This document shows, in pieces, positions 1 to 1,284 of a DNA stretch of 35,535 nt. Source of the stretch: an uncultured Kiritimatiellota bacterium (GTDB lineage Bacteria > Verrucomicrobiota > Kiritimatiellia > RFP12 > DVOR01); NCBI GenBank assembly GCA_944389545.1, contig CALXMT010000058.1:1-35535 (forward strand). The letters run 5' to 3'. Below the pieces are notes generated by a model that saw only the letters and a list, made by a program, of their open reading frames with translations, searched no databases and had not been told where the DNA came from. The translations under genes were made by a program, and so were the position numbers. Positions within the stretch are counted from its first letter, which is position 1. Each line of letters opens with the position of its first letter.

Positions 1-190
1 CAGGTAATCGCGCATCCCCCCTCCCCGGGGAGGGGGGGACTCCTCTATCATCTCATATTTTCCACAATTCTTCCAGACTCCTAATCGCGCATCCCTCTTT
101 AGGACACCTAATCGCTCCCCCCTTCTTAGGAAACCTTATCGCGACATCCCCGAGACTACCCCCGTGCGATTACTTTTCGATTTGGCGGAT
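1..190. repeat. Terminal repeat region with short tandem TAATCGC units
   Basis: No gene is visible. A short unit beginning TAATCGC and followed by C-rich sequence occurs at about 4, 82 and 109, with a weaker version at 136 (TTATCGCGACATCC). The units at 82 and 109 are each 27 nt and align along their whole length. Positions 112-186 recur as an inverted copy at 35461-35535 with two mismatches in 75. Because both ends of the window fall in this sequence, it is probably multi-copy in the genome and the place where the assembly stopped. Confidence 0.75.
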
Positions 191-222
191 TTTAGGCGCG
201 CGATATCGATTCGGTCGACGGA

Positions 223-251
223 TTGACATTTGCGCGCGGTTGTGCGATTAT
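223..251 (+). promoter_or_regulatory. Promoter of small RNA A1
   Basis: TTGACA at 223-228 and GATTAT at 246-251 are separated by exactly 17 nt, a near-consensus housekeeping sigma promoter. The same layout recurs before three more putative RNAs in the next 800 bp. Confidence 0.7.
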
Positions 252-257
252 AGTGTT

Positions 258-360
258 GTCACCCTGGCCGATTGTCGGGGTTGAGGGCGTCTCCTCCGTA
301 GGTTTTAATTTGGCATGGTGTCCCTCCCTGCGGGCCAAAGGGGGCGCCCATTCTTTTTCT
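258..360 (+). ncRNA. Putative small RNA A1 (type A)
   Basis: A transcript from the promoter at 223-251 would start near 258. It would end at a strong terminator-like helix: GGGCGTCTCC at 285-294 pairs with GGGGGCGCCC at 340-349 and is followed by ATTCTTTTTCT. The long loop contains GGTTTTAATT (301-310) and a TCCCTGCGG-like stretch (about 324-333), which recur at the same place in the loop of RNA A3. I see no convincing ORF. The family is not one I recognise. The call rests on promoter, terminator and the paralogous copy. Confidence 0.6.
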
Positions 361-375
361 GTCGCGAGAAAGCGC

Positions 376-478
376 TTGTTTCCTGTGGTCATCTGCGCTA
401 TTTTATTGGTGGCGACCGGGTCGAGCCGCTGTCCTTTCGTGATGGAGGCATGTATTCCCCGGTCGTCACCGTTTTTTA
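376..478 (+). ncRNA. Possible short hairpin transcript with its own promoter
   Basis: A 13-bp helix pairs 408-420 (GGTGGCGACCGGG) with 458-470 (CCCGGTCGTCACC), one GU pair, and is followed by GTTTTTT: an intrinsic terminator. TTGTTT at 376-381 and TATTTT at 399-404 are 17 nt apart and would start a transcript of about 65 nt that is little more than this hairpin. It may instead be a second terminator for RNA A1. The loop is not obviously like the loops of A1 or A3. Confidence 0.4.
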
Positions 479-536
479 CGTGTGCTTTGCGTTCTCTGGA
501 ACGCGCGGTACGAACGCGTATATTTCGTGTCAAGGA

Positions 537-565
537 TTGACCTTTTTGCAAAATTGTGGGATAGT
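537..565 (+). promoter_or_regulatory. Promoter of small RNA B2
   Basis: TTGACC at 537-542, 17-nt spacer, GATAGT at 560-565. The spacer resembles the others of the array, with TTGTG just before the -10 box. Confidence 0.65.
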
Positions 566-571
566 GTCAAT

Positions 572-698
572 GGATTCACGGGCTCCGGGACGCACGTCGT
601 TGCTGGCCTGATCCCCGCCAATGAGACGTGGCTCCCTTAGTTCCAGCAACTCGAGCGAGTAGAGTCTGTTTAGGCTCTGCTCGCTTTAATTTTTTTTT
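572..698 (+). ncRNA. Putative small RNA B2 (type B)
   Basis: The transcript would run about 127 nt from the promoter at 537-565 to a textbook terminator: AGCGAGTAGAG (654-664) pairs with CTCTGCTCGCT (675-685), followed by a T-rich tract ending in nine T. An internal helix pairs GTTGCTGG (599-606) with CCAGCAAC (643-650). The block AGTTCCAGCAA next to GAGCGAGTAGA is shared with RNA B4. I find no ORF with a ribosome binding site. Family unknown to me. Confidence 0.65.
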
Positions 699-757
699 GT
701 CACCTCTAGGAAATATGCGACCTAATACATTGCTTGTTACGGTTCGTACGTTAAGGA

Positions 758-786
758 TTGACCTCTTTGGCGGATTGTGAGATAGT
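758..786 (+). promoter_or_regulatory. Promoter of small RNA A3
   Basis: TTGACC at 758-763, 17-nt spacer, GATAGT at 781-786. Confidence 0.65.
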
Positions 787-792
787 AGGGGC

Positions 793-908
793 GTTGAAGG
801 GACGGCGCCACTCTTTGCGGTTGGCGAGGCCTTTGATGGAGCCGCTCTTCCCGGAGGTTTTAATTGGGGACTTTGCCCCGTCCTGCGGATCCAGAAGAGC
901 GGCTTTTT
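793..908 (+). ncRNA. Putative small RNA A3 (type A)
   Basis: Starting near 793, the transcript would end at a helix of AGCCGCTCTTC (840-850) with GAAGAGCGGCT (894-904) followed by five T. The loop carries CCGGAGGTTTTAATTGGGG and then TCCTGCGG, matching the loop of RNA A1, and a small inner hairpin GGGGACTTTGCCCC. The closing helix has a different sequence from that of A1 but sits at the same place, which supports conserved structure. Confidence 0.65.
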
Positions 909-975
909 GTGTTTACATTTCGCCTTGAAATATTAACTGTCATGTCGGAAGGGGATGAAGATTTCCCACCGAGGG

Positions 976-1004
976 TTGACTTCCACCCTCGGATATGCGA
1001 TAGT
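976..1004 (+). promoter_or_regulatory. Promoter of small RNA B4
   Basis: TTGACT at 976-981, 17-nt spacer, GATAGT at 999-1004. Confidence 0.65.
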
Positions 1005-1010
1005 GGCAGT

Positions 1011-1127
1011 GATGTTTCGGGCTCGAGGAAGGGCCGTGCTGGCGGTGTCCTCGGTGATTAGGCGAGCATCCTTGAGTTCCAGCAAATGAGCGAGTAGACG
1101 TGGAGTCCGTGTCACTCGCTCGTTTTT
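1011..1127 (+). ncRNA. Putative small RNA B4 (type B)
   Basis: About 117 nt, ending at a terminator in which GAGCGAGT (1088-1095) pairs with ACTCGCTC (1114-1121), extended inward by GACGTGG with CCGTGTC through two wobble pairs, then GTTTTT. An internal helix TGCTGG (1037-1042) with CCAGCA (1079-1084) matches the helix of RNA B2. It shares GAGTTCCAGCAA with B2 immediately before the terminator. Confidence 0.65.
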
Positions 1128-1207
1128 ACAGTGAATCAGACTGTCGGCTGATAAGATGAAGCTAAACAAAAAGCTACGTAAGTGTAGAGGTTTACAGGGC
1201 TTTTTAT

Positions 1208-1284
1208 TGGTGGATCCGGGTGGACTTGAACCACCGGCCAAGGGATTATGAGTCCCCTGCTCTGACCGACTGAGCTACGGATCC
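1208..1284 (-). tRNA. tRNA with anticodon CAT (elongator Met or lysidine-type Ile2)
   Basis: On the minus strand a full cloverleaf can be drawn. The acceptor stem is GGATCCG with CGGATCC, and the discriminator A is followed by an encoded CCA (1210-1208). The D arm begins AGCTCAGTCGGTCAGAGC. The anticodon stem GGGGA/TCCCT encloses the loop CTCATAA, so the anticodon is CAT. The T arm reads GGTGG TTCAAGT CCACC. The first pair is G-C, so it is not an initiator of the usual C1-A72 kind. The body resembles tRNA-Ile2, whose C34 is changed to lysidine, as much as elongator tRNA-Met, so I leave the identity open. Confidence 0.9.

Follow-up and report, generated by a model that had tools for sequence, protein, structure and literature searches.

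What are the four short units, each with its own promoter-like and terminator-like sequences, that lie in tandem close to the start of a contig from an uncultured Kiritimatiellota bacterium, beside a tRNA-Met gene? The window analysed here comprises 35,535 nt of this contig (C58 of the genome G000, which has a size of 2.53 Mb and is 96% complete), and a first-pass annotation had read the units as small-RNA units of two alternating types, possibly a regulatory locus. We find relatives of these units within the same genus on the antisense strand of genes for polyvalent proteins, the mosaic effectors of phages and mobile elements, and the explanation that we favour as a whole, with a probability of roughly 0.4, is that they form a genus-specific antisense RNA family of polyvalent modules that also occurs in stand-alone arrays. 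It is built on features that can be read from the DNA itself, namely the layout of predicted promoters and terminators, covariation, a nested antisense placement in relatives, DNA-level constraint on protein linkers and arrays that consist of units only. The features of the array are as follows.

223..251, + strand: promoter of unit 1, type A (-35 TTGACA at 223-228, TG, -10 GATTAT at 246-251)
258..358, + strand: predicted RNA of unit 1, type A (3' terminator stem, T tract at ~351-358)
537..565, + strand: promoter of unit 2, type B (-35 TTGACC at 537-542, -10 GATAGT at 560-565)
572..696, + strand: predicted RNA of unit 2, type B (15-bp terminator hairpin at 653-686, T run)
758..786, + strand: promoter of unit 3, type A (-35 TTGACC at 758-763, -10 GATAGT at 781-786)
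793..909, + strand: predicted RNA of unit 3, type A
976..1004, + strand: promoter of unit 4, type B (-35 TTGACT at 976-981, -10 GATAGT at 999-1004)
1011..1127, + strand: predicted RNA of unit 4, type B (covariance model score 142 bits)
1208..1284, - strand: tRNA-Met (CAT), its 3' end pointing toward the array

The promoter pattern TTGAC[ACT]N17GAT[AT][GA]T has four exact plus-strand sites in the whole window, at 223, 537, 758 and 976, exactly where the first-pass annotation had placed them, and none on the minus strand. By chance 0.0012 sites would be expected on average, with at most one site in any of 5,000 dinucleotide shuffles of positions 200-1200. All four units have a predicted sigma70-type layout, with a 17-base spacer and a TG immediately 5' of the -10 element. 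The intrinsic terminators proposed downstream are also present, as a strong stem and a T-rich tract in every unit, ending ~100-130 nt past the -10. A simple terminator scan picks up only the unit 2 hairpin, the stems of units 1, 3 and 4 being missed because of large loops or bulges. Folding of the RNAs taken from the predicted starts gives z-scores of -2.4, -3.8, -2.6 and -3.0 for units 1 to 4, and the open reading frames of the window include no credible protein gene in the array stretch, as had been claimed.

The proposed division into two types likewise stands. Units 1 and 3 (type A) share the sequence CCG.AGGTTTTAATT...CCTGCGG, with 76% identity over 38 nt, and units 2 and 4 (type B) have GTTCCAGCAA and GAGCGAGTAGA in common, giving the order A, B, A, B at this locus. 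Alternation is not a rule, however, given that further types exist and that array content differs between related species. In an alignment of ten type B copies, 93% of cells are paired and 16 of 29 pairs show two-sided changes; the 48 two-sided cells compare with 17.4 in shuffles (0/500 reach 48) and 8-16 in slid structures, bearing in mind that the structures were derived from the same alignments as were tested, which favours the derived over the slid versions, and that related sequences by themselves can exceed shuffled controls in such counts. Five type A copies give two-sided changes in 10/21 pairs (16 cells vs 6.3 in shuffles). A type B copy that was not part of the training set and that the model found afterwards (G003:C8:67624) adopts the same fold on its own. 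Type B helix 1 starts at the predicted transcription start. All ten copies can form a 6-bp loop-tail pairing, UGYUGG/CCARCA, in full or nearly in full, and two of them compensate one of its pairs, which is only suggestive of a pseudoknot.

At gathering score, Rfam 15 returned only the tRNA, both in the window and in the loci of the other arrays, and a permissive threshold also gave no credible match except tRNA. Covariance models found copies of both types outside the window, at nine places for type B (G003:C8:67624 included) and at three for type A. Taken together, the units of the window are very probably RNA genes, and those of both types appear to form a previously unrecognised RNA family.

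Related units were found only within this genus, in G003, G005, G006, G008, G013 and G015 and at a second locus in G000. With the type B model, R1, six of the 17 genus genomes match strongly, a seventh matches weakly and in the promoter alone, and the 145 other genomes of the order do not match. Unit 3 is 83% identical to a second copy in its own genome (C2:196985-197128), and unit 4 shares 78-82% identity with its copies in G005, G008 and G003. With structured, covarying units and further copies in genome and genus, the multi-copy small-RNA locus that had been envisaged is well supported at the level of sequence. Phage and plasmid collections gave no match to the units. The type B hairpin pattern had a single match in viral contigs, which lacked unit context and was dismissed as chance, and three real ones among 22 in genome contigs, all three in Kiritimatiellaeota metagenome-assembled genomes. 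Outside the genus the promoter pattern is rare and mostly not inside linkers of the polyvalent type. A further unit type may be marked by L110:9645 (G003:C4:161644), where this kind of promoter precedes a weaker terminator-like stem.

A degraded protein gene at this stretch in relatives would, by the first-pass annotation, have spoken against small RNAs, and half of this holds. In several relatives the homologous stretch does lie antisense within one long open frame, of up to ~2,900 residues, but these frames are intact and the RNA features within them are conserved. ART-PolyVal, LPD3, MuF_C and PBECR3 domains are present in the four unit-holding proteins scanned, which are thus polyvalent proteins (PMC5512222). 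Nested units lie at domain ends. Type B spans the last LPD3 residues (SEQ..RVYSLELLEL) and the next linker, and type A occupies the linker after MuF_C; unit 1 corresponds to the antisense strand at the end of a MuF_C domain and in its linker (model score 142.6 bits) and unit 2 to an LPD3 domain end and linker (144.1 bits). Further unit types, named C to H, end in this same linker, [TS][IV][APS]x....V[NK], which on the opposite strand is the promoter: GTCAA reads TTGAC, ACT[AG]TC reads GAYAGT and NCA reads the TG of the extended -10. Being encoded opposite an effector gene is thus true of units in relatives and not in the window itself. The suspected link to a mobile or conflict system beside the tRNA is likewise well supported, with polyvalent-protein genes as the apparent other home of the units. 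No clear prophage context was found around the polyvalent genes, and a search of viral contigs with a polyvalent LPD3 segment gave no match.

A conserved protein linker could in principle mimic a promoter on its opposite strand, and codon use bears on this directly. Using a motif defined by amino acids only, we found the domain-end linker threonine to be encoded by ACT in 15/15 cases, although ACT makes up 5.4% of threonine codons in the same frames. The following codon after T-[IV] (A, P or S) ends in CA throughout, where ~11% would be expected for Ala and Pro, and GTC encodes the valine of the motif; common descent of the linkers inflates this test, and neighbouring codons nevertheless vary. 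The loose motif also matches a few non-linker sites in unrelated frames and one ACG-ATC-ACG site inside a G004 polyvalent frame, which we read as chance because other unit features are absent there. The rare linker codons indicate a constraint at the level of DNA. Among free units, 1 and 4 have a broken antisense frame and the G003:C16 copies have stops in it, and comparisons between free copies (U2-C2b, U4-C16c, U3-C2c) show promoter elements differing at 1/39 sites and spacers at 24/48. A pure protein reading, in which the promoter is nothing but a conserved linker, was rejected on the codon test and on the retention of the promoter by frame-broken free copies.

Integron attC sites, repetitive extragenic palindromic (REP) sequences and Rickettsia palindromic elements are repeats with secondary structure at the borders of genes or modules, and some are read in frame within proteins. 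The units might similarly be DNA elements, with the hairpin and a 29-bp core acting as an attC-like or REP-like recombination site that shuffles polyvalent domains and with an incidental resemblance to promoters and terminators. Such an element would account for hairpins at module borders, folded single-stranded DNA would covary too, an rve transposase gene adjoins the G003 array, and polyvalent genes are known as mosaic, cassette-like loci (PMC5512222). What sets the units apart from those repeats is their promoter spacing and the orientation of their terminators: TTGAC and a TG-extended GATAGT keep a constant spacing of 17, and the T tracts are found on the side and strand where a terminator would need them. 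Terminator-like stems follow 13 of 16 free units and 15 of 20 others (a class that takes in a few units in short frames), compared with 34 of 420 random positions on the antisense strand of the giant frames and 13 of 420 on the sense strand. By eye, and in units 1-4 only, no attC-type GTTRRRY/RYYYAAC core was seen, and no recombinase was identified, though no systematic search for one was made. We consider a DNA element very unlikely.

Units also occur in stand-alone arrays, without the domains, at no fewer than three loci besides the window, and similarity to polyvalent proteins is significant in these free arrays only within the units, with no domain remnants standing out between them. G000 has one such array on C2, with three units followed by a CRISPR-like repeat array, and one on C24, with ~six units that have long outer stems. 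The G003:C16 array, in a close relative, holds three units, of types C, G and B, and is at the same locus as the window, the tRNA and following gene being 92% identical in DNA. The neighbour of this same tRNA-Met in G013:C18 is an intact polyvalent gene that holds two nested units, and in G008 the tRNA directly follows another gene, with no array. The locus has the appearance of a rapidly changing hotspot.

Several further observations concern these loci. The CRISPR-like array (L023:5380-6842, at the G000:C2 contig end; repeat GTTTCAATTCACGCTCCCGTGTAGGGAGCGAC) directly adjoins the unit array, and the rve-type transposase gene at the G003 tRNA-Met locus is at L027:421-1500 on the minus strand. 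A second hairpin-RNA-like family, with the core GTCGGTGAGGCYGGNNCGAACCG and a different promoter, is mixed into two G000 unit arrays; its copies are at L023:4476-4617 (+; fold z = -4.2), L112 ~1010-1130 (-), G005:C5:41630 and G003:C7:86555. Window positions 1-184 hold a perfect 22-base palindrome at 16-37 and TAATCGCGCATCCC repeats close to the contig start, and parts of this stretch recur at the G003:C16 start (7-72) and beside the G000:C2 array.

The hotspot raises the possibility that the array is a relic, in which a polyvalent gene once present at the tRNA-Met eroded and left functionless linkers as the surviving units. The intact gene in G013, the broken antisense frames of units 1 and 4 and the lack of LPD3 and MuF_C in G000 are all in line with this, and erosion would account for the hotspot. 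It does not account for the selective survival of RNA features. Units alone survive, in four separate arrays, and the absence of domain remnants between them weakens a decayed gene as the sole explanation. Promoter elements are kept while spacers diverge, free-free comparisons included, and stems are still paired; moreover, the unit 2 -10 has a consensus T absent from its nearest nested copy, and its T tract is longer. On balance a relic seems unlikely.

Under the antisense explanation that we favour, the window array would comprise four stand-alone small-RNA genes, each with its own TG-extended sigma70-type promoter (TTGAC[ACT]-17-GATAGT or GATTAT) and each predicted to yield a structured RNA of 100-125 nt ending at an intrinsic terminator. 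The other home of the family would be the antisense strand of domain junctions in polyvalent genes. Each RNA would be expressed and would move with its polyvalent module as an antisense partner, repressing that module either at the mRNA or as an antitoxin-like RNA, and the orphan arrays may have trans-acting effects on polyvalent genes whose elements are incoming or have been lost. That the units regulate polyvalent proteins in an antisense or antitoxin-like manner is a tentative proposal. A full conflict system seems quite unlikely to us; here, effector domain modules would carry their own antisense antitoxin RNA in the linker and cells would bank orphan copies as protection, in the fast-changing arrays beside the tRNA gene and the CRISPR-like array.

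Several findings weigh against antisense regulation. Free copies are only ~80% identical to nested ones, and among nested units some have a weak -10 (GACACT) or, in types E and F, lack a clear terminator. The genus has several polyvalent genes with no unit at all, so the RNA is not obligatory, and on the same grounds we discarded the idea of the motif as a constant feature of polyvalent linkers. The single ART-PolyVal gene of G000 (a 1,590-residue frame) has no unit and the genome gave no LPD3 or MuF_C match, which leaves the window RNAs without an obvious matching target in their own genome. Real RNAs could instead act elsewhere, as protein-binding or trans-acting small RNAs (sRNAs) with host targets, the linkers serving as landing sites for a mobile RNA gene. 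Maintenance of structure despite ~20% sequence drift would fit this, as would the coexistence of polyvalent genes with and without units, the mixing of arrays with an unrelated hairpin-RNA-like family and the finding that the outer stems of different unit types are unrelated. The units contain domain-specific codons, however, including those of the LPD3 end (SEQ..YSLELLEL), and are hence not simple insertions, and we judge an action elsewhere distinctly unlikely.

Several known systems resemble this arrangement in part. Polyvalent proteins of phages and conjugative elements have been described as domain mosaics encoded in cassette-like loci (Iyer et al. 2017, PMC5512222), and the unit-holding genes resemble these in carrying ART-PolyVal, LPD3, MuF_C and PBECR3. 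They differ from that account in that several junctions per gene carry an antisense RNA gene and that such RNA genes also form stand-alone arrays; the words antisense, linker, promoter, small RNA and noncoding are absent from the text of PMC5512222, and we found no description of the nested arrangement in the open-licence literature searched. In cis-antisense RNAs and type I toxin-antitoxin systems, too, a short RNA gene that has a promoter and a terminator of its own lies opposite an effector gene, but the units are found at junctions between domains inside the gene, with several to a gene, and form orphan arrays as well. Type III toxin-antitoxin RNAs (ToxI and relatives) are likewise tandem structured RNAs, and the possible 6-bp pseudoknot of type B is reminiscent of them, whereas here each unit has its own promoter and terminator and has nested counterparts antisense in polyvalent genes. 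No ToxN-like or other toxin gene is apparent beside the array, which tRNA-Met follows, although only 220 bases of the contig precede unit 1 and no scan of the flanking frames against toxin-antitoxin families was made. Tandem sibling sRNAs such as NgncR_162/163 (PMC9973317) are related sRNA genes in tandem, whereas our unit types are unrelated in their transcribed part, have only promoter and layout in common and have protein-coding counterparts.

If the antisense explanation is correct, then protein linkers in this genus double as complete RNA genes on the opposite strand, and codon choice within them would be held by the needs of a promoter and a terminator. For polyvalent effectors, about whose control little is known, this would supply an RNA regulator. 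The orphan arrays differ between related species, which suggests a fast turnover such as that seen in an arms race.
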